Source: Nonomuraea coxensis DSM 45129
Lineage (GTDB): Bacteria; Actinomycetota; Actinomycetes; Streptosporangiales; Streptosporangiaceae
NCBI RefSeq assembly: GCF_019397265.1
Contig: NZ_CP068985.1
Span: 4,816,501 to 4,880,500, forward strand
Reading direction: 5' to 3'
DNA: 64,000 bases
The stretch's first letter is position 1. Each line of letters starts with the position of its first letter. A program made the translations under genes and the position numbers. Below are positions 9,438 through 21,911 of the stretch, piece after piece. Under the pieces are notes generated by a model. That model searched no databases. It saw only the letters and a program-made list of their open reading frames with translations, and was not told where the DNA came from.

Positions 9438-9570
9438 TCAGTTCCGTACGGGTCTGGTGCTCGTGCCCGACCCGAGCCCGGCCGCCGGCCGCAGCAGAGT
9501 GGACTTCCCGCAGCCCGAGGGGCCCAGGATGGCCACGATCTCACCTGGCAGGATGTCCAGGCATGCCTGA
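9438..9570 (-). pseudogene. Remnant of an ABC transporter ATPase gene
   Basis: Reading the minus strand gives CLDILPGEIVAILGPSGCGK followed by STLLRPAAGLG, the Walker A region of a nitrate/sulfonate/taurine-type importer ATPase. The similarity starts abruptly and stops after about 40 residues, and the frame ends at 9438. No signature motif, Walker B or permease is nearby. It is therefore a deletion scar between the TetR gene and the lipoate ligase gene. Confidence 0.75.
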
Positions 9571-9603
9571 TGCGGTTTGAAGGCAGGGGCGGGCGCTGAG
9601 ACG

Positions 9604-10350
9604 TCAGCCAGTCGGCCGGCGACCGGCTTCCACGGGAGCCGGGGTGGCGCTGTCGAGGATGTCGTCGGGACGTACAAGCCCGTGCGTGACGTACGCCGTG
9701 ACGATCGCGGCGACGACGGCGTGAAGCTCGCGAACGCCCGTCTCCTCCTCGACCGTGCCGATCGTTAAAGGGTCCAGTTCGAGGTCAAGCGCGTCGTAGC
9801 AGGCCAGGGCCACGTCGCGAAGGGCGGGGCCGCCGTGGACCTGCACGACGGAGCTGACCAGCCAGGAGCGCCCGCGGATGCGCTGCGCGGTGCCGGCGAT
9901 CTTGACTCGGCCCCGGGCATTGACGCTGTGGTCGCCGGGGCAGTATTCCCGTGGCACCGGACCGACGCGGGCGTCCACGCCGAGAGAGCCAAGGGCGGCG
10001 CGCAGTGCCTCCGCCACCGCGGTGAAGCGGTGGTGCGGGGACAGGGCGCCGGCCGGGTCGACGCCGTAGTGATCGAGCACCAGACTGCCCCCGTGCAGGG
10101 GGGCGGCCGATCCCCCGACCGGGCGTACGTGGGCCGCGAAGCCGTGTTCCACGACCGCCACGACGGCGGAGGCGAATCCGGGGTTCCTCGTGTCACGGCG
10201 GCTGAAGGCGACGACCGGCGGCAACCGGCGGACATGGAGGATGGGGGATGCCCGCTCTTCTTGCGAGAGTTTCCGCAGGAGACCCGCTACATGCTGGAAC
10301 GGGTCTCCTCCCGGAGGGTCGGTCCGATCGGCGGGGAGCACGGGGATCAA
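9604..10350 (-). CDS. Lipoate-protein ligase A family protein (last gene of the E1/E2 operon)
   Basis: This 248-residue protein belongs to the biotin/lipoate ligase fold. It shows the substrate-binding VRPVGGSAAPLHGGSL segment (GG about residues 80-81) and the catalytic-lysine motif GRVKIAGTAQR (Lys about 151). Such enzymes attach lipoate, or transfer octanoyl groups, to the lysine of lipoyl domains. The TTG start at 10350 overlaps the stop of the E2 catalytic gene (TTGA), with no better start in frame. Its position at the end of the operon suggests it modifies Lys43 of the small lipoyl protein encoded 0.7 kb upstream. That partner assignment is inference. Confidence 0.8.
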   Translation of the reverse strand: MIPVLPADRTDPPGGDPFQHVAGLLRKLSQEERASPILHVRRLPPVVAFSRRDTRNPGFASAVVAVVEHGFAAHVRPVGGSAAPLHGGSLVLDHYGVDPAGALSPHHRFTAVAEALRAALGSLGVDARVGPVPREYCPGDHSVNARGRVKIAGTAQRIRGRSWLVSSVVQVHGGPALRDVALACYDALDLELDPLTIGTVEEETGVRELHAVVAAIVTAYVTHGLVRPDDILDSATPAPVEAGRRPTG

Positions 10351-11018
10351 GGCGTCTCGATCAGGGCGCGCAGCTCGGTGAGGAACGCGGCGCCCGTCGC
10401 GCCGTCGACCGCCCGGTGATCGCAGGTGAGCGTGAAGTCGGCCTGGGGGACCCACTCCCCCGCACCGTCACGGCGGACGTACCGCTCGCTGGTGGCACCG
10501 ATCGCCAGGATCGCCACCTGCGGCACGTTGAGGATCGCGGTGAACCGGTCGACGCCCTGCATGCCGAGGTTGGAGATCGTGAAGGTGCCCCCCGTCACGT
10601 CGGCCCTGCCGAGCCGGCCCTCCCGCGCCCGGGAGACGAGGTCACGGCGGGCGGCCCTGATCTCCGGGAGCGCGAGCCGGTCGGCGCCCTGGACGACGGG
10701 GACCATGAGGCCCGCGTCGGTCGCGACCGCCACACCGATGTTGACCTGGCCGAACCGCGTGACGGTCAGGTCGTCGTACCACGCGTTGAGCTGCGGGTGC
10801 CTCACGAGTGCTCTGGCGCAGCACTCGATCAGCCTGTCGGTCACGGTCGCCTGGGCGTCACGCTGTTTCACGGCGAGCGCGGCCGACATGTCCACGGTGA
10901 GCGTCAGAGTGAAGGCCGGCGCTTCCCACGCCTTGATCATCCTGCGCGCGGCGGTCCGCCTGATGCCGGTCAGCGGCACCACGTCACGAACGCCGGGGCC
11001 GCTCGCGTCCACGGTCAT
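10347..11018 (-). CDS. Dihydrolipoamide acyltransferase (E2) catalytic domain only
   Basis: This 223-residue protein is just the inner catalytic core of a 2-oxoacid dehydrogenase E2, which transfers the acyl group from lipoyl-lysine to CoA. The active-site motif DHRAVDG with catalytic His about 201 is intact. The N-terminus begins almost at once with VVPLTGIRRTAARRM, the start of the catalytic fold. There is thus no lipoyl domain, no flexible Ala/Pro linker and no peripheral-subunit-binding domain. The lipoyl domain is a separate gene ending four bases upstream in another frame. The ribosome-binding site is weak, so coupled translation is likely. A frameshifted ancestral E2 is an alternative explanation. 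Confidence 0.85.
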   Translation of the reverse strand: MTVDASGPGVRDVVPLTGIRRTAARRMIKAWEAPAFTLTLTVDMSAALAVKQRDAQATVTDRLIECCARALVRHPQLNAWYDDLTVTRFGQVNIGVAVATDAGLMVPVVQGADRLALPEIRAARRDLVSRAREGRLGRADVTGGTFTISNLGMQGVDRFTAILNVPQVAILAIGATSERYVRRDGAGEWVPQADFTLTCDHRAVDGATGAAFLTELRALIETP

Positions 11019-11022
11019 CGTC

Positions 11023-11262
11023 CTAGTCCGTCTCGATGACGGCGATGACGGCGCGGACGTCCACGGTCTCTCCCTCGGCCGCCAGGATCTCGGTGAGAGT
11101 GCCGGTCGCCGGGGCCTCCACGGTCTCCTCGACCTTCTCGGCCTCGACGTCGACGAGCGGCTCGTCCTCGACGACGCGCTCGCCGACCTTCTTGAGCCAG
11201 GTGGAGATCGTGCCCTCGCTCATGCCCATTCCCCATTGCGGGAGGAGGACTTCAACCCTCAT
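11023..11262 (-). CDS. Stand-alone lipoyl carrier protein of the dehydrogenase complex
   Basis: This is a 79-residue single lipoyl domain. The lipoylation site is Lys43 in VDVEAEKVEETVEAP, and the C-terminal half has the matching symmetric strands (GTLTEILAAEGETVDV). It should shuttle acyl groups between E1 and the E2 core encoded just downstream. The ATG follows AAAGGAG at good spacing. It resembles the N-terminal domain of acetoin/pyruvate dehydrogenase E2 chains but ends cleanly after the domain, with no linker. Confidence 0.85.
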   Translation of the reverse strand: MRVEVLLPQWGMGMSEGTISTWLKKVGERVVEDEPLVDVEAEKVEETVEAPATGTLTEILAAEGETVDVRAVIAVIETD

Positions 11263-11295
11263 GGTCAGCTCCTTTCCTGTACATCCGATTCTTCG

Positions 11296-12303
11296 TTACG
11301 CCGGCGCGAGGCCGGTCACCCGCCGGAGGGCGGCGACGATGCCGTCGCGGGTGGGGTACATCTGCTGCTCAAGGCTGGGGCTGAACGGGATCTGCATGTC
11401 CGGCGCGGTGAGCCGCACGATGGGGGCCTTCAGCGCGTCGAACACCTCCTCCGCGACGAGGGCGGAGATCTCGGCCGCGGCGCCGCACGTACGGTGGGCC
11501 GGCTCGACGACGACGAGCCGGCCCGTTCTGGCGACCGAGGTGAGGATCGCGGCCGTGTCCAGGGGCACGAGTGTGCGCGGGTCGATGACCTCGACCGACA
11601 CGCCTTCCTCCGCGAGGCGGTCGGCCGCTGCGCACGCGTCGGGCACGGAACCGGAGATCGCGACGAGGGTGACGTCGGTCCCCTCCCTCACCGTCCGCGC
11701 GACTCCCAGAGGGATGCGGAAGGGGTCGTCGCCGACCTCGCCCTTCAGCCCCCACAGCTTCACGGCCTCGAACGTCAGCACCGGGTCGTCCGAATCGATG
11801 GCGGCGCGGAGCAGCCCCTTGGCGTCCTCGGGTGACGCGGGAGCGATGATCTTCAGCCCGGGCACGTTCATGAACATCGGGTACGGCCGGTCCGAGTGGT
11901 GCGCGCCCGTGTTGAGGCCGTAGAACATCGCCGAGCGGAAGACGACCGGCATGGACGCCTGGCCGCCGAACATGTAGCGGTTCTTGGCGACCTGGTTCAC
12001 GAACTGGTCCATCGCCATGTAGAGGAAGCTCGAATAGGAAAGGTCGACGATGGGGCGCAGCCCGGTCATCGCGGCTCCGGCCGCGATGCCCACAATTCCC
12101 TCCTCGGAGATGGGGGTGTTCCTGATGCGGTTGCGGCCGAACAGCTGCAGGAAGTCGCCTTCGCTGCTCCGGGACTTGCCGCCGCCCGTCGTGCCGTAGA
12201 CGTTGGCCTCGACGTCCTCGCCCACGATGACGACGCGCTCGTCGGCCTCCATCGCCTCGCGCTGCGCGGCGCCGATGGCTCCGAGGTAGCTCATGATGCT
12301 CAT
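11296..12303 (-). CDS. Thiamine-diphosphate-dependent dehydrogenase E1 beta subunit
   Basis: This 335-residue protein has the transketolase-like pyrimidine-binding domain followed by the C-terminal transketolase domain of acetoin/pyruvate dehydrogenase E1 beta chains. Recognisable pieces are EDVEANVYGTTGG, the interface motif ISEEGIVGIAAGAAMTG, and FEAVKLWGLKGEVG. With the alpha subunit it forms the heterotetramer that decarboxylates or cleaves the substrate and acylates the lipoyl protein. Its ATG overlaps the alpha-subunit stop by four bases. The closest family feel is acetoin-dehydrogenase-like, but the substrate is not determined. Confidence 0.85.
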   Translation of the reverse strand: MSIMSYLGAIGAAQREAMEADERVVIVGEDVEANVYGTTGGGKSRSSEGDFLQLFGRNRIRNTPISEEGIVGIAAGAAMTGLRPIVDLSYSSFLYMAMDQFVNQVAKNRYMFGGQASMPVVFRSAMFYGLNTGAHHSDRPYPMFMNVPGLKIIAPASPEDAKGLLRAAIDSDDPVLTFEAVKLWGLKGEVGDDPFRIPLGVARTVREGTDVTLVAISGSVPDACAAADRLAEEGVSVEVIDPRTLVPLDTAAILTSVARTGRLVVVEPAHRTCGAAAEISALVAEEVFDALKAPIVRLTAPDMQIPFSPSLEQQMYPTRDGIVAALRRVTGLAPA

Positions 12304-13283
12304 ACGGCGGTCACCTCGTCGGTGTAGAGGTCCTCGAATGCGACGGACGGCTCGGGATAGGGACTCTCGTTCGCGAACTCCACGGCGCGGTCGACCTCTT
12401 CCATCACTTCCGCGTCGAGCTCCTTGAGTTGCTCGTCGGTGATGCCGCGGTCGCGCAGGCGACCGGCGAGGCGGTCCAGCGGATCACGGCTGAGCCACTC
12501 GTCGATCTGCTCCTTGTCGCGGTAGTTGTCGATGCGCAGGCCTTCGGAGTGCTCGTTGAAGCGGTAGGTCATGACCTCCACCAGGCACGGGCCCTCGCCC
12601 GCCCTGGCCCGGTCGGCCGCGGTCTTCACCGCGTCGTACACCGCGATCACGTCCTGGCCGTCGTCCACTCGGACTCCGGGGATGCCGAACCCGGCCGCGC
12701 GTTCGAAGATGTTGCCGGAGGTCACGGTGTGGGCGGGCGTGCTGAGCGCGTACTGGTTGTTCTCGCAGAGGAAGATGGCCGGCAGCTTCCAGACGCCCGC
12801 CATGTTCATGGCCTCGTAGAGGACTCCCTGGTTGGCGGCGCCGTCGCCGAAGAAGGCGAGGGAGACGCGCGGGCGGCCGAGGAGTTTCGACGCGAACGCG
12901 GAGCCGGTCGCGATCGGGATGGAGGAGCCGACGATGCCGGACTCGCCCAGGCTGCCGACCGAGAAGTCGGCCAGGTGCAGCGACCCGCCCTTGCCCCGGC
13001 ACACTCCGGTGGCCTTGCCGACGAGTTCGGCCATCAGCGGGCCGAGCGGGGAGCCCTTGCCGATGGGATGGCCGTGGCTGCGATGGTTGCCCGTCATGTA
13101 GTCGTCGTCGTCGAGCGCCATGCAGGAGCCGACGACCTGGGCCTCCTGACCGATGCTCGTGTGCACGGTGCCAGGGATGAGGCCGCGTTTGACCATCTTG
13201 GCCGCGCGCTCCTCGAAGCGGCGGATGCGCGTCATCCGCCGCTGCATCTCAAGCAGCGTGGACGTGGGTAGGTCGGTCCGCAC
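12300..13283 (-). CDS. Thiamine-diphosphate-dependent dehydrogenase E1 alpha subunit
   Basis: This 327-residue protein carries the ThDP motif as GDGAANQG followed about 25 residues later by ENNQYA, and the SIGQEAQVVG and GNHRSHGHPIGKG elements of acetoin/pyruvate dehydrogenase E1 alpha. Its short length fits the acetoin-dehydrogenase subtype better than classical branched-chain enzymes. The GTG start at 13283 has a perfect AAGGAGG five bases upstream. It is the first gene of a five-gene operon with its own promoter, whose operator is shared with the kinase operon. No E3 (dihydrolipoamide dehydrogenase) gene is in the window. Confidence 0.85.
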   Translation of the reverse strand: MRTDLPTSTLLEMQRRMTRIRRFEERAAKMVKRGLIPGTVHTSIGQEAQVVGSCMALDDDDYMTGNHRSHGHPIGKGSPLGPLMAELVGKATGVCRGKGGSLHLADFSVGSLGESGIVGSSIPIATGSAFASKLLGRPRVSLAFFGDGAANQGVLYEAMNMAGVWKLPAIFLCENNQYALSTPAHTVTSGNIFERAAGFGIPGVRVDDGQDVIAVYDAVKTAADRARAGEGPCLVEVMTYRFNEHSEGLRIDNYRDKEQIDEWLSRDPLDRLAGRLRDRGITDEQLKELDAEVMEEVDRAVEFANESPYPEPSVAFEDLYTDEVTAV

Positions 13284-13300
13284 GAATCCTCCTTTGCATA

Positions 13301-13329
13301 TATATTCAATCAAGAATGGTTATTCTCAA
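13301..13329 (-). promoter_or_regulatory. Promoter and operator of the E1/E2 operon
   Basis: On the minus strand a -35 box TTGAGA (13324-13329) and a -10 box AATATA (13301-13306) are separated by 17 bases. An inverted repeat, ATTC-TTGATT-GAAT (13304-13317), fills the spacer and touches the -10 box. The same element, with the same following TATATGCA, precedes the FGGY kinase gene. A repressor of the SorC type encoded next door could block polymerase here. Confidence 0.7.
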
Positions 13330-13384
13330 TGATAGCGGCGAAGGGCCGGCTCGCACCTTTCGGGTTCTGCGCCGGCTCTCCGGG

Positions 13385-14356
13385 TCAGTTGTCGGCGACC
13401 AGCGCCTGCGCGTTCATCAGATCGGTGACGATGACGTCGACCCATCCCCCGCGAAGCGCTCCGCGGATGGCCTCGAACTTGCGCGCGCCACCGGCGATGC
13501 CCACGCGCCGCGGCGTCTTCAACAGCGCCTCGACGCCGATGCCCACCACCAGGTCGTTGAACTCGGTCTCGATCGGCCTGCCGTCGGCGTCGAAGAAGCG
13601 CATCGCCACGTCGCCCACCGCGCCGAGCTCACGCAACGTCCGCATCTGCGCCTCCGACACGGCGTTGCCGGAGACCTGGAGCAGCGGCGACGGCGTGACG
13701 CTGCCGATGCCGACGAGAACATCGGTGAGGTTCTCCCAGGCCGCCGCCGTCTCGACGACGTTCGGGTCCTGGAAAAGGGCCTCACGGGCGGACGGCGTCG
13801 CGACGATGCCCGGCGTGGGCAGGAACATGGGGGTGCCGCCCGCGATGCGGGCCAGCCGGAACGTCAGCTCGGTCGCCTTGAGCTGTGCGGCCGGCTGTCC
13901 CACTCCGCCCATGATCTGCACGATGGACTCGGCACGCCGACGCTTGAGCGGAACCATCGAGTCGACGGTCGCCAGCAGGGTCTCCGACCAGGAGGAGAAC
14001 CCGACCCGCGCGCCGTTCGTGAGCGTCGCCTCAAGGTAGGTCGCCGCCGCTGCGCCGAGCGCCCACATGGTGGAGCGTTCATCGCCGCTGCTCTCCACGA
14101 TGAGCGCCTGCCGCAGCCCGTACTTCCGTACGAGCTGCTCCTCCAGCTCCGGATAGACGCCCTCGGGCGGCAGCACGACCGTGCGCACGATCCCCATCTC
14201 CACCGCCTGCTTGAGCCACCGCGACACCCGCGACTGAGAGATGCGCAGCTGCTCCGCGATCGCCGGCTGCGTCATGTTCTGCTCGTGATACATCCGCGCG
14301 ACCTGCACGATCATGGTCACGGAGTCGCGACCTTCGGCGCCTGTTCTCCCGATCAC
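13385..14356 (-). CDS. SorC/DeoR-type sugar-binding transcriptional regulator
   Basis: This 323-residue protein has an N-terminal helix-turn-helix (MTQPAIAEQLRISQSRVSRW, about residues 28-47). A C-terminal SorC sugar-binding domain follows, including VGFSSWSETLLA and the glycine-rich VGIAGGARKFEAI. Family members respond to phosphorylated sugars or polyols produced by the pathway they control. The GTG start at 14356 follows AAAGGAG. The gene sits between the ABC importer genes and the E1/E2 operon, making it the obvious candidate to bind the shared operators at 13304 and 20417. Confidence 0.85.
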   Translation of the reverse strand: MIGRTGAEGRDSVTMIVQVARMYHEQNMTQPAIAEQLRISQSRVSRWLKQAVEMGIVRTVVLPPEGVYPELEEQLVRKYGLRQALIVESSGDERSTMWALGAAAATYLEATLTNGARVGFSSWSETLLATVDSMVPLKRRRAESIVQIMGGVGQPAAQLKATELTFRLARIAGGTPMFLPTPGIVATPSAREALFQDPNVVETAAAWENLTDVLVGIGSVTPSPLLQVSGNAVSEAQMRTLRELGAVGDVAMRFFDADGRPIETEFNDLVVGIGVEALLKTPRRVGIAGGARKFEAIRGALRGGWVDVIVTDLMNAQALVADN

Positions 14357-14417
14357 GTGGCTTCTCCTTTCTGCATCGTCGATGTCGCTGATCGCTCAGG
14401 TCCACGGTGGCACCTGT

Positions 14418-15914
14418 TCACTGGGTGGCGTACGCCATGACGCGATCGGCGGTCGCTTCGGCCGCCTCCATGATCCCCTGATTCCGACCTTGGGCAAGAA
14501 CCATGACCCGGTGCGCGAGACCGAGCACCTCCTCCAGGTCGGACGAGACCACGATGATCGCCTTGCCCTGCTGCGCGAGCTCGGCGACGACCTCGTAGAT
14601 CGACGCGCGCGCGCCGATGTCGATGCCCCGGGTCGGCTCGTCGAGAATGATGACCTTCGGATCCGACGAGAGCCACTTGGAAAGGACGACCTTCTGCTGG
14701 TTGCCGCCGGACAGGGTCGCCACCGGGTCGCCGACACCGCCCTTCACGCCGAATCGCTGCGCGGCCTTGCGGGCGAACCGGGTGACGCCCGAAGGAGTGA
14801 CGAAGCCCCACCGGGTGATGGCGGCGAGATTCGGCAGCGCGATGTTGTCCTCGATGGTGTCGGACAGGATGACGCCCTGCTGTTTGCGGTCCTCGGGAAT
14901 GAGGACCACTCCCGCCGCCTTGGCCGCGAGCGGATCGTCCGCCGCGAGCGGCACGCCGTCGATCCTGACCTCGCCGCAGCGGCGCGGCTCCAGAGAGACG
15001 ATGGACCGCACCAGTTCGGTGCGTCCAGCGCCGACGATGCCCGCGATGCCGAAGACCTCTCCGGCACGCACGGTGAAGGAGACGTCCTCGAAGCGGCCGG
15101 CCCGGTCGGAGATGCCTTCGACCGACACCACGACCGCCTCGCGCGGGGCGTCGAATCGGGGGAAGAGCCGGTCGACGCTGCGGCCGACCATCTCCCGCAC
15201 CAGCACGTCAGGGGCGACGTCCCCGCTGTCGTGCTCCGCGACCTTCTCCCCGTCGCGGAGCACGACGATGCGGTCGGCGATCTGCGCGATCTCCGCGAGC
15301 CGGTGGCTCACGTAGATGAACGAGACGCCCTGCTCCTTGAGGGAGCGGATGCACGCGAACAGCGCGGTCGTCTCCATCTCGCCGAGCGCGGCGGTCGGCT
15401 CGTCGAGGATGAGCAGCGAGGCGTCGAGCATGAGCGCCTTGGCGATCTCCACCTGCTGCTGGCCCGCGACGCTCAGCTCGCGGACCGGCTGATCCGTCCG
15501 GCCGGTGAACCCGACCTTGTCCAGCTGCTCCCGCGCCTGCCTGAGCATCGTCCGCGCGCTGAGGAACCCGGCCCGGGTGGGCCACCGGCCGACCGCGACG
15601 TTCTCGGCCACGGTCAGGTCGGGGAGCAGCCGCATCTCCTGATGGATCATGCCGATGCCGCGCATGAGCGAGTCGCGTGGCGTCGCGGGCGCATGCGGTC
15701 GGCCCTGCCAGGTCATGGTGCCCGTGGTGGGCTGAATCGCACCGGCGATGATACCGGACAAGGTGGATTTCCCCGCGCCGTTCTCGCCGAGAAGGGCGAT
15801 CACCTCACCCGGCCGCGCCTCCAGGTCGATGCCGTTCAGCGCGGTGGTGCCCGGGTACGACTTCGAGATGCCGCGAACCGTCAGTATCGGGCTCGGAGCG
15901 GGCTCGCTCGTCAC
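14418..15914 (-). CDS. Sugar ABC importer ATPase, RbsA/XylG type
   Basis: This 498-residue protein contains two tandem ATP-binding domains. The first has Walker A GENGAGKST and signature LSVAGQQQVEIAKAL. The second has the degenerate P-loop GIVGAGRTE typical of the family and signature LSGGNQQKV. This is the layout of ribose/xylose/rhamnose/erythritol-type importers. The GTG start overlaps the stop of the binding-protein gene (GTGA). With RbsB- and RbsC-like partners upstream it forms a full importer. Confidence 0.9.
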   Translation of the reverse strand: MTSEPAPSPILTVRGISKSYPGTTALNGIDLEARPGEVIALLGENGAGKSTLSGIIAGAIQPTTGTMTWQGRPHAPATPRDSLMRGIGMIHQEMRLLPDLTVAENVAVGRWPTRAGFLSARTMLRQAREQLDKVGFTGRTDQPVRELSVAGQQQVEIAKALMLDASLLILDEPTAALGEMETTALFACIRSLKEQGVSFIYVSHRLAEIAQIADRIVVLRDGEKVAEHDSGDVAPDVLVREMVGRSVDRLFPRFDAPREAVVVSVEGISDRAGRFEDVSFTVRAGEVFGIAGIVGAGRTELVRSIVSLEPRRCGEVRIDGVPLAADDPLAAKAAGVVLIPEDRKQQGVILSDTIEDNIALPNLAAITRWGFVTPSGVTRFARKAAQRFGVKGGVGDPVATLSGGNQQKVVLSKWLSSDPKVIILDEPTRGIDIGARASIYEVVAELAQQGKAIIVVSSDLEEVLGLAHRVMVLAQGRNQGIMEAAEATADRVMAYATQ

Positions 15915-16867
15915 GGGTGGTTCGCCAGGTACTCGTCGACGTTCTCGCTGGTCGTCAGGATGCCCTTCTGCAACTGCTCGGCGGGGACCTGCTCCTTCTT
16001 GATCAGCTTGAGCGTCGACTGGACGGCGAGCTTGCCCATGGCCGTCGTCTGCTGGGTGACGGTCGCGGCGAGCAGGCCGCTCTTCACCGCCTCAAGGCCC
16101 GACGGGTCACCGTCGAATCCGACGACGAGCATGTCCTTGCTGCCCGCGTTGCGCGCGGCCTGGGCGGCGCCGAGCGCGAGCCCGTCGGCCCGCCCGAAGA
16201 TGATGTCGATGTCCGGATGCGCCTGGAGGAGGTCCGTGGCGATCTGGTAGCCCTCGTCCTGCAGCCATGCCTTGGACGCCTGTCGGGCGACCTCCTTGAT
16301 CTTGCCGCCCTCGATGCCCTTCTTGAACCCCTCGTCACGCGCCTCCTCAGGCGTGGTGCCGAGCTGGCCCTGGATGATCGCGAGGTTGCTCCTGTCGCCG
16401 GCGTTCTTCACGACCCACTCGCCGAGCTCCTGCGCCGCGGCGACGCTGTCGGTGGCGATGAACGTGTCGCCGGGGGCGTCCTTGGGGTTGCGGTCAACCG
16501 TGACCACGGGAATGCCTGCCGACTTCGCGGCACGCACCGGAACCGTCGCCGCGGCGGCGCCCGCCGGGATGTAGATGAGCCCGTCGACCCCTCGGGTGAT
16601 GAAGTCCTGGACCTGGCTGACCTGGTCGTCGGCGTCGTTCTTGGCGTCCGCGATCAGGACCTTCGCGTTCTCGCGCTTGGCCTCGTCCTCGACCCACTTG
16701 CGGATCGCCACGTAGAAGGGGGACTGCTGGTTGGGCACGGCGAGGCCGATCGTGATCTCGCTGTCTTCGGCGCTGGTGCTCGACGCGCACGCGCCGAGAG
16801 TGGTGGACAGCAGGGCTGCGGTCATCAGGCCGACGAACATCTTGACGGGCCTGCGTGGTTCGAACAT
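15911..16867 (-). CDS. Sugar ABC importer substrate-binding lipoprotein, RbsB type
   Basis: This 318-residue protein has a signal peptide with lipobox LGAC (Cys about 27), then the periplasmic-binding-protein type 1 fold (ITIGLAVPNQQSPFYVAIRK). Elements such as GVDGLIYIPAGAAAATV and GFDGDPSGLEAVKSG match ribose/galactose-type binders. The ATG at 16867 has GGAAAGGA upstream. It captures the external substrate of the locus; the pocket residues do not let me name the sugar. Confidence 0.9.
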   Translation of the reverse strand: MFEPRRPVKMFVGLMTAALLSTTLGACASSTSAEDSEITIGLAVPNQQSPFYVAIRKWVEDEAKRENAKVLIADAKNDADDQVSQVQDFITRGVDGLIYIPAGAAAATVPVRAAKSAGIPVVTVDRNPKDAPGDTFIATDSVAAAQELGEWVVKNAGDRSNLAIIQGQLGTTPEEARDEGFKKGIEGGKIKEVARQASKAWLQDEGYQIATDLLQAHPDIDIIFGRADGLALGAAQAARNAGSKDMLVVGFDGDPSGLEAVKSGLLAATVTQQTTAMGKLAVQSTLKLIKKEQVPAEQLQKGILTTSENVDEYLANHP

Positions 16868-16929
16868 GTGGGGGGTTCCTTTCCCGATGGCTCCTGTGGG
16901 AACGTTCCAGATCTCTCGCCGTCCGGCGC

Positions 16930-17955
16930 TCATGCGCTTCGTTCCTTGCGGCGACGGAAGACGTCGGTGAACACGGCGGCGGCGATGACGACGCCGATGA
17001 TGACTTGCTGAAGAAACGGCGACACGCCGAGAAGGTTGAGTCCGTTGTGCATGACGCCGACGATGAGCACGCCGACGATCGTGCCGGTGATGCGGCCGAC
17101 CCCGCCCGAGAGGCTGGCGCCTCCGATGACGACGGCGGCGATGACGTCGAGTTCGAGCCCTTCTCCCGCGCTGGGCTGGGAGGAGTCGAGCCGGCTGGCG
17201 AGCACGATGGCCGCGAGCCCGGCCATGAGACCGGCCACGACGTAGACCCAGGTCGTCACGGCCTTGACCTTGATGCCGGCCAGGCGGGCGACCTCGGGGT
17301 TGCCGCCGACCGCGTAGACCGAGCGGCCACTCGCCCGATATCTCAGGATGGCCCACCCGATGACGTAGAGCACGATCAGCGCCATCAACGTGATCGAGAG
17401 GAAGCCGCCATATCTGGTCGACGCCAGCGAGTAGAACCACTCGGGGTAACCGGTGATCTGACGTCCGTCCGTGGTCATGTTGGCGAGACCCCGGGCGACC
17501 GACATCATGGCGAGCGTCGCGATGAACGGCGGCAATCGCGTGATGGTGACCGCGAGGCCGTTGACCAGCCCGGCGAGGCCGCCGGCCGCCACACAGGCGA
17601 TCATCGCGATCCACAGCGGCAGTCCGCCGTCATGGGAGAGCCAGCCGAGGACCATCACCGACAGGGCGAACACCGCGCCGACCGACAGGTCGATGCCGCC
17701 GGTGATGATGACCGCGGTGGCGCCGAGCGCGAGGATCCCGAGCACGGTCACCTGGTCGAGGATGTTGATCAGATTGACGGGTCTGGCGAAGTTGGGGGCG
17801 AAGATCGCCATGATCACGACGAGCGCGACCAGGCCCAGGAACGGGCCGCCCACTCCGTCGAAGATCCGCGCCAGTCCTTTGGCCGCGCCACGCGGCGACC
17901 GCGGGCCGTCATCGGCGCGCGGGCCGGCGCTCGCGGGATGGTGGGTCATGGCCAC
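16930..17955 (-). CDS. Sugar ABC importer permease, RbsC type
   Basis: This is an integral membrane permease of the ribose/xylose family with eight to ten hydrophobic helices. The family motif GGIDLSVGAVFALS and the late GGASLSGGVGRITGTIVG loop, which contacts the ATPase, are both present. A GTG start at 17955 with GGAG six bases upstream is preferred; an ATG at 17949 is the alternative. It lies 45 bases downstream of the SDR gene and 62 bases upstream of the binding-protein gene in one operon. Confidence 0.88.
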   Translation of the reverse strand: MAMTHHPASAGPRADDGPRSPRGAAKGLARIFDGVGGPFLGLVALVVIMAIFAPNFARPVNLINILDQVTVLGILALGATAVIITGGIDLSVGAVFALSVMVLGWLSHDGGLPLWIAMIACVAAGGLAGLVNGLAVTITRLPPFIATLAMMSVARGLANMTTDGRQITGYPEWFYSLASTRYGGFLSITLMALIVLYVIGWAILRYRASGRSVYAVGGNPEVARLAGIKVKAVTTWVYVVAGLMAGLAAIVLASRLDSSQPSAGEGLELDVIAAVVIGGASLSGGVGRITGTIVGVLIVGVMHNGLNLLGVSPFLQQVIIGVVIAAAVFTDVFRRRKERSA

Positions 17956-18000
17956 TTCTGGCTCCAAGGGGGGCGTACGGGTGTGTTCGGACGGTCCATG

Positions 18001-18807
18001 TCAGTCCATCGACATTCCGCCGTCGACGTTGATCGTCTGACCGGTGATGTAGGTGGCGGCGTCGGAGGCGAGGAAGAGCAGGAGGTTGGCCACGTCGGCC
18101 TCGCGGGCGGGGCGCTGCAGCGGGATGTCACGGATCCACTCGGCCACGAGCTCGCCGGGCTGGTAGTCGCCGAGCTTGGCCCCCCAGGCGCCGTCCAGGT
18201 AGCCCCACATGTCGGTCATCACGATGCCGGGGCAGTAGGCGTTCACCCGGATGCCGTCCTTGGCGAGCTCCTTGGCGAGGGACTGCGTCATGCCGACGAC
18301 CCCGAACTTGCTGGCCGCGTAGTGGGGGGTGAAGATGAACCCTTCCCTCGCCTGGGCGCTCGCGGCGTTGAGGATCACCCCGCCGCCGGCCGCGCGCAGC
18401 AGCGCGACGGCCTCGCGCGCCACGATGAAGTGGCCGACCGTGTTGACGTCGAGGACGCGCTTGAACTCCTCGGTCGTCAGGTCTGTCAGCCGTTCGACGC
18501 TGATCACGCCCGCGTTGTTGACGAGGACGTCGAGGCTTCCCCACTCCTCGGCCGCCACCGCGACGGCCGCCCTGACGGCCGCGTCGTCGGTGACGTCCGC
18601 CGTACAGGCGCGCGTGTCGAGCCCGTCGGCACGCATCAGCTTCGCCGTCTCGTGCACCTGATCGTCGCGGTCGACCAGCAGCACCGCCGCTCCCGCCTCG
18701 GCGAAGGCACGGGAGATCGCCCGTCCCATGCCATGGGCGGCGCCGGTCACCAGCACCTTCTTACCGGCGAAGTGGCCGGCGAAGATGCTCGAGGCCTGTT
18801 CGTTCAT
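18001..18807 (-). CDS. Short-chain dehydrogenase/reductase, probable polyol or sugar dehydrogenase
   Basis: This 268-residue classical SDR has the cofactor motif TGAAHGMG (about 21-28) and NNAG (97-100). The catalytic set is Ser150, Tyr163 and Lys167 (HYAASK). An Asp in LLVDRDDQ after the second strand suggests NAD(H) rather than NADP(H). The C-terminus ITGQTINVDGGMSMD is typical of the family. It overlaps the upstream kinase stop by four bases (ATGA). Oxidation of an imported polyol to a ketose, or of a sugar to a lactone, is the likely role. Confidence 0.85.
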   Translation of the reverse strand: MNEQASSIFAGHFAGKKVLVTGAAHGMGRAISRAFAEAGAAVLLVDRDDQVHETAKLMRADGLDTRACTADVTDDAAVRAAVAVAAEEWGSLDVLVNNAGVISVERLTDLTTEEFKRVLDVNTVGHFIVAREAVALLRAAGGGVILNAASAQAREGFIFTPHYAASKFGVVGMTQSLAKELAKDGIRVNAYCPGIVMTDMWGYLDGAWGAKLGDYQPGELVAEWIRDIPLQRPAREADVANLLLFLASDAATYITGQTINVDGGMSMD

Positions 18808-20327
18808 GACTCGCTCTGCTTTCTGGGAATGGCGGGCTGGAATCGGGAGCGTTCGATCGCCGATCGCCACGTCTGACGGCGGGCGTCGGCGCCGGATCTC
18901 TCCATCAGGGGGTCGAACGGCGAGCGGTCCCGGGGAAGGCGAAGGCACTCCTCCGCCGTCCACAGACCGCAACTGACGCCGGCCAGGTGGGCGGCCCCGG
19001 TGGCGGAGAGTTCGGCGATGTTGCTGCGCACCACGCGCCGCTGGCTCAGGTCGGCCTGTACCTGCATGAGCCAGTCGTTCTGGCTGGGGCCGCCGTCGGC
19101 GAGCACCGTGTCGATCGGGGTGCCCAGACGTTCTTCCACCGCGGAGAACAGGTCCTCCGTCTGCAGCGCCACCGACTCGAACGCGGCGCGGGCCAGGTGG
19201 CCTGGGCCGGTGCCCAGCCCGAAGCCGCTGACCAGCCCCACCGCCGACTCGTCCCACCAGGGCGCGCCCAGACCGGCGAAGGCCGGTACGAGATCGACGC
19301 CCTGGGTGTCGGGGACGGACTGCGCGAGCGCGCTGAGCTGGGCCGGGTCGACCCCGAGGATCTTGGCGAGCCACAGCAGGGTGGCGCCGGTCGACAGGAT
19401 CGTCCCCTCGAAGGCGAAGGCCGGCACGGGGTCGGCCCACGCGATGGTGGTGACCAGCCCGTCCAGGACGCGGGCGCCGGCCCGGTCGTCGACCTCGGCG
19501 AGGCCCATGATCGAGCTGCCGCTGCCGTAGGTCGCCTTCACCTGGCCGGGAGCGCGCACCCCGTGGGCGTAGAGGGCGGCGTGGGAGTCGCCGAGGATTC
19601 CGTGCAGGCGCGTGCCGCGGGGAACGCCGGGGACGTCGATGAGCGCCGCCGTCGCCTCGGTCGACGCGCACACGCGCGGCAGGCAGACGGGCGGGATGCG
19701 GAACAGTTCGAGCAGTTCGCCGTCCCAGGTCAGCGTCTCCAGGTTGAGCAGCTGGGTGCGGCCGGCGTTACCGATCTCGATGCGGTGCTCGCCGGTCAGC
19801 GTCCAGGTCAGCCAGGAGTCGATGGTGCCGAGCGCGATCTCGCCCCGGCGGGCCGCGTCGCGGTGGGGATCGACCTGGTCGAGCAGCCATTCGTACTTGA
19901 GGGCGGAGAACATGGGGTCCAGCGGAAGACCGGTCTTCGCGCGGATCCTGGCGGCCCAGCCGGACTCCTCCAGGGGGCGTACCCGATCGGCTGTGCGCCG
20001 GTCCTGCCAGCCGAGGACCGGGCCGAGAGGTTCGCCCGTCCTGCGGCTCCAGATGACGGCGGATTCGCGCTGGTTGGACAGGCCGATGCCGACGAGTTCG
20101 ACGTCCACGGAGTCCAGAACGGTCACGAGCGCGGCGACGACGCTTTCCCGGATCTCGTTCGCGTCCTGCTCGACCCAGCCGGGAGCGGGGTCGGCCCGGC
20201 CGATGCCGACCGAGGACCTGCCGAGGACTCTGCCGTCGGCGCCCACGACGACGGCCTTGCTGGAACTCGTCCCTTGATCGATGGCGGCGACCGCGGGGAC
20301 ACCTTTGGGCATGCTGGCGTCAGCCAC
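18804..20327 (-). CDS. FGGY-family carbohydrate kinase, glycerol-kinase-like branch
   Basis: This 507-residue kinase has the N-terminal phosphate loop DQGTSSSKA (about 17-25) and the conserved SNQRESAVIW and GWQDRR segments. The catalytic-Asp region is GDSHAALYAHG, and the C-terminal ATP-site motif is LADGGPSQNDWLMQ. The overall pattern is closest to glycerol kinases, but GDQQ is replaced by GDSH, so the substrate is probably another polyol or ketose. The GTG start at 20327 is supported by AGGAGA eight bases upstream. It is the first gene of the kinase-SDR-importer-regulator operon. Confidence 0.85.
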   Translation of the reverse strand: MADASMPKGVPAVAAIDQGTSSSKAVVVGADGRVLGRSSVGIGRADPAPGWVEQDANEIRESVVAALVTVLDSVDVELVGIGLSNQRESAVIWSRRTGEPLGPVLGWQDRRTADRVRPLEESGWAARIRAKTGLPLDPMFSALKYEWLLDQVDPHRDAARRGEIALGTIDSWLTWTLTGEHRIEIGNAGRTQLLNLETLTWDGELLELFRIPPVCLPRVCASTEATAALIDVPGVPRGTRLHGILGDSHAALYAHGVRAPGQVKATYGSGSSIMGLAEVDDRAGARVLDGLVTTIAWADPVPAFAFEGTILSTGATLLWLAKILGVDPAQLSALAQSVPDTQGVDLVPAFAGLGAPWWDESAVGLVSGFGLGTGPGHLARAAFESVALQTEDLFSAVEERLGTPIDTVLADGGPSQNDWLMQVQADLSQRRVVRSNIAELSATGAAHLAGVSCGLWTAEECLRLPRDRSPFDPLMERSGADARRQTWRSAIERSRFQPAIPRKQSES

Positions 20328-20411
20328 GAATTGTTTCTCCTGCCGAATGTGCACCTGAACCGTGAAGCGGCAGTGGCGGCGCACGTCGCCACTGGCCAGA
20401 CGGCTGATGCA

Positions 20412-20440
20412 TATCTATTCAGTGATGAATTATCGGTCAA
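20412..20440 (-). promoter_or_regulatory. Promoter and operator of the kinase/importer operon
   Basis: On the minus strand TTGACC (20435-20440) and TAGATA (20412-20417) are 17 bases apart, close to the sigma-70 consensus. An inverted repeat ATTCA-TCAC-TGAAT (20417-20430) lies inside the spacer. TGAATAGATATGCA matches TGAATATATATGCA of the E1/E2 promoter at 13 of 14 positions. The transcription start would be about 80 bases before the kinase GTG. Confidence 0.75.
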
Positions 20441-20590: not shown

Positions 20591-21911
20591 TACTACAGTC
20601 ATGCTTTGTGATCTATAGTCGGGCTCGTGTCGGAGGTGGTGCCGTCTGAGGATCTCCAGTCGTGGACGGCCGGGCTGGACGAGCTGTTCGCGCGGGTGGC
20701 CCGTCGTTTCGGCCGGGTGGAGCCGCGTCGGCAGGCGCGGGCATACCTGGTCGGGCTCCTGGCGCCGGTGGAGCGCAAGAACGGCTGGCAGCTGGCCGAG
20801 GCCGCGGGTGACGCGCGGCCGCATCGGATGCAGCGGCTGCTGAACAACGTGCGCTGGGATCCCCGGGAAGTCCGTGTCGACCTGCGGAATTACGTGGTCG
20901 ACAAGCTGGGCGAACCGGGTGGCGTGTTGATCGTGGGCGATACCGGGTTCGTCAAGAAGGGCGCCCGGTCGGCCGGAGTGCAGCGCCGGGCGGCCGGCGC
21001 GGCAGGCCGGGTGGAGAACTGCCAGCTCGGGGTGTTTCTGGCGTACGCCACCCCGCGCGGGCGCACCCTGCTCGATGCCGAGCTGTATCTGCCGAAGTCC
21101 TGGACCGATGACCGTGCCCGATGCGTCCAGGCCGGCATTCCGGACAGCGTGCCCTTCACCACCGAACCGGCGCTGGCGACCGCGATGCTGGGCCGCGCCC
21201 TGGACGGTGGAGTGCCCGCCTCGTGGGTGGCCGCGGACGAGACGTACGGCCAGGACCACGAGTTCCGTGCGTTCCTGGAGGCACGCAAGATCGGGTACGT
21301 GGTCACGGTGCCCAGGAGTCAGCCGATCGGCACCGGCGACACCGGCTCACGCGCTGACGCCGTAACCGCCGATGCCCCTGAGCAGGCGTGGAAACGCCTG
21401 CCCGCGGGCGATGGGGCCAAGGGGCCGCGCCCATACGACTGGGCAATGGCCACGTTGCCGCCGCACGCCGACGACGATCTCGGCGGCTCCGCGGGCTTTC
21501 AGCGGCGGCTCCTGGTCCGCCGCGGCCTCGCGCCGGACGACCGAGGCGAGCGTGGGCCGGCCTTCTGGCTGTGCTTCGGACCTGTGGGAACCCCGCTACG
21601 GGAGCTGGTGCGCATCGCTGGTTCCCGCTGGGCGATCGAGGAGTGCCTCGCCTCCGCCAGGAACCAAGTCGGACTGGATCAGTACCAGGTCCGCCGCTAC
21701 GACGGCTGGCACCGCCACATCACCCTGGCCATGCTCGCCCACGCCTACCTCGCCGGCACCGCCGCCCACGCCACGGAAGCGTCTCGCCCCCAGCCGGGAT
21801 CTGCCGTCTCCTGGCACGTCTGACCAGCACCGTCACTCATCCGCTCAACCCCGCGCCCGCAGCGGCCACAACAAGAATCTGTGCAACAGATCGCGAAACG
21901 TGACTGTGGTA
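20591..21911 (+). mobile_element. Complete IS701-like insertion sequence
   Basis: The element is about 1.32 kb with imperfect terminal inverted repeats. The left end (20591-20618, starting TACTACAGTCATG) and the right end on the opposite strand (21911-21884, starting TACCACAGTCACG) match at 21 of 28 positions. One transposase gene fills it. I see no convincing short target duplication directly outside the repeats, so the insertion may be old or followed by rearrangement. It separates the catabolic locus from the PadR/ABC operon. Confidence 0.8.
20627..21823 (+). CDS. IS701 family transposase
   Basis: This 398-residue DDE transposase has RRFGRVEPRRQARAYLVGLL near the N-terminus. The first catalytic Asp lies in VGDTGFVKKG, the second in AADETYGQD, and a Glu-containing segment (AIEECLASARNQVGLDQYQV) precedes a WHRHITLAMLAHAYL helix. 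These are hallmarks of the DDE_5/IS701 group. The frame is uninterrupted, so the enzyme may still be active. The start is GTG; the exact start is uncertain because no strong ribosome-binding site is present. Confidence 0.88.
   Translation: MSEVVPSEDLQSWTAGLDELFARVARRFGRVEPRRQARAYLVGLLAPVERKNGWQLAEAAGDARPHRMQRLLNNVRWDPREVRVDLRNYVVDKLGEPGGVLIVGDTGFVKKGARSAGVQRRAAGAAGRVENCQLGVFLAYATPRGRTLLDAELYLPKSWTDDRARCVQAGIPDSVPFTTEPALATAMLGRALDGGVPASWVAADETYGQDHEFRAFLEARKIGYVVTVPRSQPIGTGDTGSRADAVTADAPEQAWKRLPAGDGAKGPRPYDWAMATLPPHADDDLGGSAGFQRRLLVRRGLAPDDRGERGPAFWLCFGPVGTPLRELVRIAGSRWAIEECLASARNQVGLDQYQVRRYDGWHRHITLAMLAHAYLAGTAAHATEASRPQPGSAVSWHV

Follow-up and report, generated by a model that had tools for sequence, protein, structure and literature searches.

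The D-apiose pathway, reportedly first described by Carter et al. in 2018, includes a step in which AptAB moves the two-carbon unit of apulose 4-phosphate to an aldose phosphate, leaving dihydroxyacetone phosphate (DHAP). Transketolases and E1 enzymes use a common thiamine diphosphate (ThDP) chemistry, acetoin dehydrogenase itself cleaves methylacetoin, and most sugar catabolism yields acyl-CoA either by way of pyruvate, losing CO2, or by the phosphoketolase route via acetyl-phosphate. In the Escherichia coli D-apiose cluster the genes bear the names aplK, aptA and aptB, and strains other than SE15 that carry this cluster grew on D-apiose (both from PMC13001218). Here we describe a locus in a 64,000-nucleotide stretch of Nonomuraea coxensis DSM 45129 (the window; contig NZ_CP068985.1, positions 4,816,501 to 4,880,500, numbered below from its first letter). 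Open reading frames and searches with Pfam and NCBIfam models gave eleven genes, all on the minus strand at 9604-20312, for an FGGY kinase, a short-chain dehydrogenase/reductase (SDR), an RbsABC importer, a SorC regulator and a dehydrogenase complex with its own LplA-like protein; every one of these gene kinds, which an earlier note made from the letters alone had named, is present. We propose, with a probability of about 0.5, that the product of this kinase undergoes oxidative cleavage ("oxidative ketolysis") by the E1/E2 complex, in the place where the D-apiose pathway uses a transketolase.

The locus resembles the D-apiose cluster in its AplK-type FGGY kinase, its SDR (46% identical to the second SDR of the E. 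coli SE15 cluster), its RbsABC importer and its SorC regulator. It differs in having no AptA/AptB, no isomerase-like gene and one SDR rather than two (the isomerase and the SDR pair were searched for at the locus only and not in the rest of the genome), in carrying an E1-lipoyl-E2-LplA complex and in using a different RbsABC subtype. Against the glycerol-kinase model TIGR01311 the window kinase scored 435.1 bits, below the cut-off of 590.35. In a tree of 100 kinases (quick search, midpoint root), the window type (7 rows, among which two pairs are the same genome twice), 28 AptAB-linked rows and E. coli AplK formed one group with a support of 99 in the Shimodaira-Hasegawa-like approximate likelihood ratio test (SH-aLRT); the four GlpK rows, and also 24 GlpK-like kinases from other E1 loci, lay apart from it. 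Three positions of the glycerol pocket, which we take to be those of E. coli GlpK Y135, Q246 and F270, read M or L, S and S in 36/36 rows of the AplK clade (34 distinct sequences; M/S/S in the window) and Y, Q and F in 4/4 GlpK rows, while R83, E84, W103 and D245 are conserved in all rows of both. A glycerol kinase is ruled out by the model cut-off, the tree and the pocket residues, and by these sequence comparisons the window kinase is of the AplK ketose-kinase type.

The relatives of this kinase place the dehydrogenase genes where AptAB is otherwise found. A protein search with the kinase covered 345 genomes of one bacterial order, and the stretches around 40 listed hits were examined, these being the top-ranked ones plus some glycerol kinases for comparison. 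Kinases 43-53% identical to that of the window mostly stand directly behind a gene that matches E1-beta at about 30%; in Glaciibacter superstes (L079) that gene and its upstream partner are the C and N halves of a transketolase (213 and 277 bits against NF004559), and the halves of this locus are 46% and 38% identical to E. coli AptA and AptB. Among the 32 AplK-type loci of the order (L033-L064, kinase score above 330 bits), 30 contain both AptA- and AptB-like halves, none of the 30 has an E1-alpha of at least 200 bits, and the two without AptAB (L033 and L034) both have E1. Three loci below the 330-bit threshold (L065, L067 and L068) also carry both transketolase halves, the second one in L067 at just 97 bits, and a kinase search across the phylum (396 genomes, E up to 1e-105) added one more locus, G457, with both halves and an isomerase-like gene. 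An isomerase-like TIM barrel, the fold one would expect of apiose isomerase, occurs in 29 of the 32; no hit to it was obtained in L033 or L034, whose only SDR is of the SDR2 type. No split AptA-like gene was found in the window genome, G144 or G301; each gave a single hit, in open frames of 666, 846 and 767 amino acids, respectively, and these are too long for a split half. L033 and L034, which recur in the named species collection as Nonomuraea cavernae (L077) and Streptosporangium amethystogenes (L078), keep the whole gene set in unchanged order with proteins 81-99% identical, and the genes are therefore not neighbours by chance. Intermediates between the two types exist in two loci. L043 has AptAB and two SDRs, one of them matching that of the window (61%), together with a window-type permease (62%), a SorC gene and an AplK-type kinase, and lacks an isomerase-like gene; L079 holds AptAB and the E1 complex together, with a kinase 70% identical, both SDRs and an importer 67-73% identical. 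By comparison of gene content, the E1/E2 complex thus stands in for AptAB. As a separate observation, a nucleoside-hydrolase-like cluster (Pfam on one member; L037 18426-19814) is present in 11 loci and might be an apiosyl hydrolase.

A second line of evidence is a 14-mer, TGAATANATATGCA, that stands ahead of both the kinase and the E1-alpha operons, in the latter case within the 101-bp gap between SorC and E1-alpha. With up to two mismatches it has three matches in the window, one of them the first site on the opposite strand (shuffle mean 0.03), and with up to one mismatch the 9.07-Mb genome holds these two sites only (one hit for the reversed-pattern control). The slightly wider YGAATANWTATGCA matches exactly at two places, both at the locus, in each of three genomes (that of the window, G144 and G301), and its control pattern at none. 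We also searched TGAATANATATKCA, the pattern with G or T at position 12, at up to one mismatch, with resampled controls that preserve dinucleotide frequencies and not exact counts. It gave 47 sites in 1.08 Mb around 58 E1 loci whose E1-alpha is at least 68% identical, 37 of them with at least one site (resampled 1, 1, 0); 36 sites in 22 of 31 sister loci (resampled 0, 0, 0); and 3 sites in 2 of the 22 loci of the other E1 group (resampled 0, 0, 0). The site is probably the SorC operator of the family, with SorC as its likely binder. Because it precedes each of the two operons and occurs nowhere else in the genome, they belong together and, as far as sequence can tell, form one system and regulon; this common site and the conservation of the set rule out a chance neighbourhood. 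In one AptAB-type sister locus (L035 1822-3255) a gene for a pectate lyase has a two-mismatch version of the site in front of it.

From these elements we propose the following pathway. The RbsABC importer would take up a sugar alcohol with a branched chain, apiitol or something closely related being the most likely; the nearest solved sequences to the RbsB-type protein are ribose-type binding proteins, and that search gave no ligand call. An Asp follows strand beta-2 of the SDR, a position that goes with NAD use, and the enzyme is probably NAD-dependent. With one SDR, a probable NAD site in it and no isomerase-like gene, the imported compound is presumably a polyol. The SDR would oxidise its secondary hydroxyl to an apulose-like ketose, and the AplK-type kinase would phosphorylate a hydroxymethyl arm. 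E1-alpha/E1-beta, which would have to accept a phosphorylated ketose, would then attack the ketone and, in the manner of transketolase, break the bond that joins it to the adjacent tertiary carbinol, and the two-carbon unit would be oxidised onto the free lipoyl protein instead of going to an aldose, before the E2 core transferred the acyl unit to CoA. In this catabolic direction apulose 4-phosphate would yield glycolyl-CoA, DHAP and NADH, and a methyl-ketone analogue acetyl-CoA. The LplA-like protein would lipoylate the carrier, a housekeeping E3 would re-oxidise it, and SorC would control the whole catabolic system. Apulose is related to methylacetoin but hydroxylated; methylacetoin is a tertiary acyloin and, according to PMC6117667, convertible to acetyl-CoA. 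Apiitol/apulose as the particular substrate remains a tentative choice, to which we give clearly less than even odds. The outline of the earlier note, in which a polyol is oxidised, phosphorylated and cleaved to an acyl-CoA, fits this scheme; its picture of a usual polyol pathway with an extra enzyme has to give way, the kinase being of the AplK ketose type and the nearest known logic that of the D-apiose pathway, with E1/E2 in the place of the split transketolase.

The association with sugar kinases extends to the E1 clade as a whole. An E1-alpha scan of a species collection (84,980 species) returned 299 relatives, from which the best 80 were retained. A match to the window kinase of at least 50 bits accompanies 56 of the 58 loci with E1-alpha at least 68% identical (41/41 where at least 20 kb of DNA was available) and none of the remaining 22. 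In a tree of joined E1-alpha and E1-beta these loci form one group (SH-aLRT 99) that includes L133, just under 68%, which brings the clade to 59 loci and leaves 21 outside it (19 from Chloroflexota and two from mycolic-acid actinobacteria). With a kinase profile, an FGGY kinase lies within 10 kb in 59/59 clade loci (E up to 1e-10) and in 0/21 of the others (E up to 1e-3), with the reservation that the profile was built from the kinases of these loci, many of them the clade members' own, and that for 10 of the 21 others the locus spans less than 20 kb. The profile recovered the kinases of L094 (a 3.6-kb contig) and L130, the two of the 58 without a 50-bit match, and that of L133, the L130 kinase being FGGY by Pfam too. 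Matches of at least 50 bits to other window proteins were found for SorC in 45/58 clade loci, importer plus kinase in 39/58 and the lipoyl protein in 55/58. Clade members belong to the Actinomycetota (including Cryobacterium, Arthrobacter, Nocardioides, Geodermatophilus, Nakamurella, Conexibacter and a Rubrobacter plasmid) and the Alphaproteobacteria, and by these comparisons the clade is sugar-linked as a whole. Since its loci were ascertained by E1 they say nothing of importers without E1, a side covered by the kinase-based set. The kinase in every clade locus and the common site on both operons bear out the claim that importer, SDR, kinase and dehydrogenase complex make up one system.

Much of the clade consists of larger loci, which hold an iron-dependent alcohol dehydrogenase (Fe-ADH) of the glycerol-1-phosphate dehydrogenase type (39 loci), a HAD-IIA phosphatase (28), a GlpD-like protein (37) and a class II aldolase (40), together with a xylulokinase-like FGGY and a GlpK-like kinase; these are protein clusters with the family assigned on one member each. 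Their Fe-ADH/HAD/FGGY trio presumably resembles AraM/AraL/AraB of Bacillus. Three loci (L097 2315-19468, L158 and L159) show modules of Fe-ADH with the xylulokinase-like kinase and of GlpD with GlpK, alongside the HAD phosphatase and the class II aldolase, and L110 has an E3-like gene (Pfam) between E2 and the LplA-like gene. An epoxide-hydrolase-like cluster (Pfam on the L100 member only) occurs in L098, L100, L103, L110, L113, L119, L121, L122 and L132; it could hint at branched polyols derived from epoxydiols, and 2-methyltetrols and erythritol-like polyols were considered as substrates of the larger type. We regard it as possible, somewhat short of an even chance, that the clade is a widespread "oxidative ketolase" class, in which FGGY kinases supply (branched) ketose phosphates and a ThDP-lipoate complex splits them into an acyl-CoA and a triose-type phosphate, and that similar parts lists were assembled independently at least twice.

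The dehydrogenase genes by themselves admit other chemistries. With an E1 ThDP enzyme, a lipoyl carrier and an E2 core all encoded, the locus specifies a complex of the broad 2-oxoacid-dehydrogenase type. The best NCBIfam match of the lipoyl protein is the acetoin dehydrogenase E2 model NF011457, at 75.9 of 307 bits and far below cut-off; the E2 core is not matched by this model, a result that leaves room for acetoin systems with a PF00198-type E2. The ketose phosphate might accordingly be a methyl ketone (of the 1-deoxyketose type or an oxidised 2-methyltetrol), which an acetoin-dehydrogenase-like complex would split into acetyl-CoA and an aldehyde or ketone phosphate. The nearest solved sequences to the SDR, which include acetoin/diacetyl reductases and a butanediol dehydrogenase, agree with this, as do the conversion of methylacetoin already cited (PMC6117667) and an independent locus in Rhizobium sp. 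CIAT894, where an E2 with an acetoin-type annotation accompanies an FGGY kinase, SDRs and RbsABC. The sister AplK-type loci are nevertheless apiose-like, with the isomerase-like barrel in 29/32 and a pectate lyase in one, so a hydroxylated ketose is favoured for the window type and a methyl ketone seems unlikely. Plain use of acetoin or 2,3-butanediol was rejected as the main reading, as it would leave kinase, importer and SorC without a role.

It is rather improbable that the complex is a usual 2-oxoacid dehydrogenase that works at a later step, such as on sugar-derived pyruvate, and is co-regulated for flux. This reading is suggested by the nearest solved sequences and NCBIfam models of the E1 chains, which are pyruvate dehydrogenase (PDH) or 2-oxoacid dehydrogenases, and by the finding that the genome has only two other E1-alpha matches (E up to 1e-15), both far weaker. 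E1-alpha, however, misses both PDH models (335.3 bits against a cut-off of 393.85 for TIGR03182, and 263.7 against 411.35 for TIGR03181), E1-beta falls short of NF006667 (294.6 against 321), and a downstream PDH would explain neither the tie to FGGY kinases throughout the clade nor the replacement of AptAB. Residues specific to the clade were found at 13 E1-alpha and 10 E1-beta positions (two of the latter in a gapped C-terminal tail; L133 counted with the other group), and no charged set arguing for phosphate binding was seen among them. Finally, it is very improbable that the two operons are unrelated neighbours, of which one serves a polyol and the other acetoin or a different ketone: the gap with its own operator-like site would let the E1 genes be transcribed apart, and the order of gene blocks differs in L091, L118 and L125, but the site is common to both operons and to nothing else in the genome, and the linkage survives rearrangement in L079, L091, L118 and L125, the last three of which retain kinase, SDR, importer and E1.

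Several observations weigh against oxidative ketolysis of an AplK product as proposed here. Overall identity leaves the kinase no closer to AplK of E. coli SE15 (39%) than to the GlpK of its own genome (39-40%); identity cannot separate the two, and the tree was therefore built. In that tree E. coli AplK is the sole AplK reference and sits on a long branch (1.23), and the kinases of L118 and L125 are not among its rows. The operator-like site lies within 200 bp ahead of E1-alpha in just 13/58 clade loci, standing otherwise ahead of other locus genes, and the complex is not always whole within the flanks, with E2 in 43/58 and the LplA-like gene in 40/58. Most of the clade has kinases of other types (xylulokinase-like, GlpK-like), along with GlpD-like, Fe-ADH and class II aldolase genes, which means that apulose phosphate need not serve E1 as substrate in every member. 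AptAB and E1 stand side by side in L079 and could there have different substrates, and no gene obviously handling glycolyl-CoA was seen in the locus. The linkage of importer and dehydrogenase that the earlier note expected does not hold for the wider AplK-type family, where 30/32 loci carry AptAB instead; it holds better within the importer type of the window (permease at least 60% identical), for which 3 of 4 loci among the kinase-based hits of the one order (window, L033 and L034) have the complex and L043 has AptAB, a small number of cases.

Table 1. Genes and operator-like sites of the locus, in window coordinates.
Feature	Position	Strand	Support and remarks
Operator-like site TGAATAGATATGCA	20408..20421	-	Ahead of kinase/importer operon; one of two genome copies
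FGGY kinase, apulose-kinase (AplK) type by sequence	18804..20312	-	FGGY_N/FGGY_C (Pfam), FGGY_N 176 bits
SDR dehydrogenase	18001..18807	-	adh_short_C2 207 bits; ATG overlaps kinase stop
RbsC-type permease	16930..17949	-	BPD_transp_2 161 bits
RbsB-type substrate-binding lipoprotein	15911..16867	-	Peripla_BP_4 202 bits
RbsA-type double ATPase	14418..15914	-	ABC_tran 187 bits, two stretches
SorC/DeoR-type sugar-sensing regulator	13385..14356	-	Sugar-bind PF04198 195 bits
Operator-like site TGAATATATATGCA	13295..13308	-	11 bp ahead of E1-alpha GTG; other of two genome copies
E1-alpha, ThDP-dependent	12300..13283	-	E1_dh 276 bits
E1-beta	11296..12303	-	Transketolase_C 126 bits, Transket_pyr 112 bits
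Free lipoyl carrier protein, 79 aa	11023..11262	-	Biotin_lipoyl 63 bits; EKV lysine motif
E2 acyltransferase core without lipoyl domain	10347..11018	-	2-oxoacid_dh 230 bits, residues 12-223 of 223; DHRxxDG motif
LplA/LipL-like lipoyl transferase or ligase	9604..10350	-	LplA-B_cat 32.0 bits; TTG start overlaps E2 stop

Ten of the eleven products pass their Pfam cut-offs by a wide margin (Table 1); the weakest family call is that of the LplA-like protein, against a cut-off of 27 bits, and its VKIAGTAQ stretch is presumably the LplA-type Lys motif. For E1-alpha the GTG at 13283, preceded by AAGGAGG, is the more likely start than the mechanical TTG at 13313. No E3 gene was seen within the locus, and two lipoamide dehydrogenases above the family cut-off are encoded elsewhere in the genome. 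A DDE_5 transposase gene (20627-21823, plus strand) lies just upstream of the kinase operon, and a short frame (9438-9677, minus strand) with a Walker A stretch of an ABC ATPase overlaps the end of the LplA-like gene and looks like the remnant of a further importer gene.

Among described complexes, acetoin dehydrogenase (aco) has in common with the locus the ThDP-dependent E1-alpha/beta, the lipoyl carrier, the E2 and, as proposed here, cleavage of a C-C bond beside a ketone without loss of CO2, but the window adds kinase, importer and SorC, and its lipoyl domain is a separate 79-residue protein. The pyruvate dehydrogenase complex (E1 alpha2beta2 type) shares the domain families of E1-alpha, E1-beta and the E2 core; in the window E1 scores below the curated cut-offs, the context is a sugar locus and the E2 is split. 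Analogues in function are plasmid loci of Rhizobium sp. CIAT894 and Sinorhizobium meliloti Ak57 (L165 and L167), which have the same functional parts list, with RbsABC, E1, E2, FGGY kinase, two SDRs and SorC, where the E2, annotated as acetoin type in CIAT894 and present as two pieces in Ak57, differs from the PF00198 core of the window. Matches to 96-98% of the S. meliloti stretch occur on plasmids of Shinella and Roseateles, and two of the three matches list an acetoin-type E2, E1 and FGGY kinase among their feature names. The rhizobial E1 falls outside the E1 clade of the window (S. meliloti E1-alpha 43% and kinase 22% identical), and by these comparisons the plasmid loci are the same parts assembled independently. 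Another plasmid, of Rhizobium sp. K1/93 (L164), brings together a glucitol-type phosphotransferase system, a SorC-like regulator, an oxidoreductase, E1-alpha/beta, E2 and thiC, a further case of polyol import beside a dehydrogenase complex. A search of open-access full text (5.39 million papers, mostly without subscription papers, so that an earlier description is possible) found no such system described. If the proposal is right, an oxidative ketolase replaces transketolase and channels sugars straight into acyl-CoA pools, gaining NADH and losing no CO2; direct cleavage of ketose phosphates would be a further route to acyl-CoA, useful for carbon-efficient biosynthesis, and generically annotated E1/E2 genes in Actinomycetota and Alphaproteobacteria would gain a function, with substrates among plant and soil polyols. 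Set against these known systems, the parts of the locus are familiar and their combination is new, and if the E1 chemistry is as proposed it would represent a new class of ketose-cleaving enzyme.

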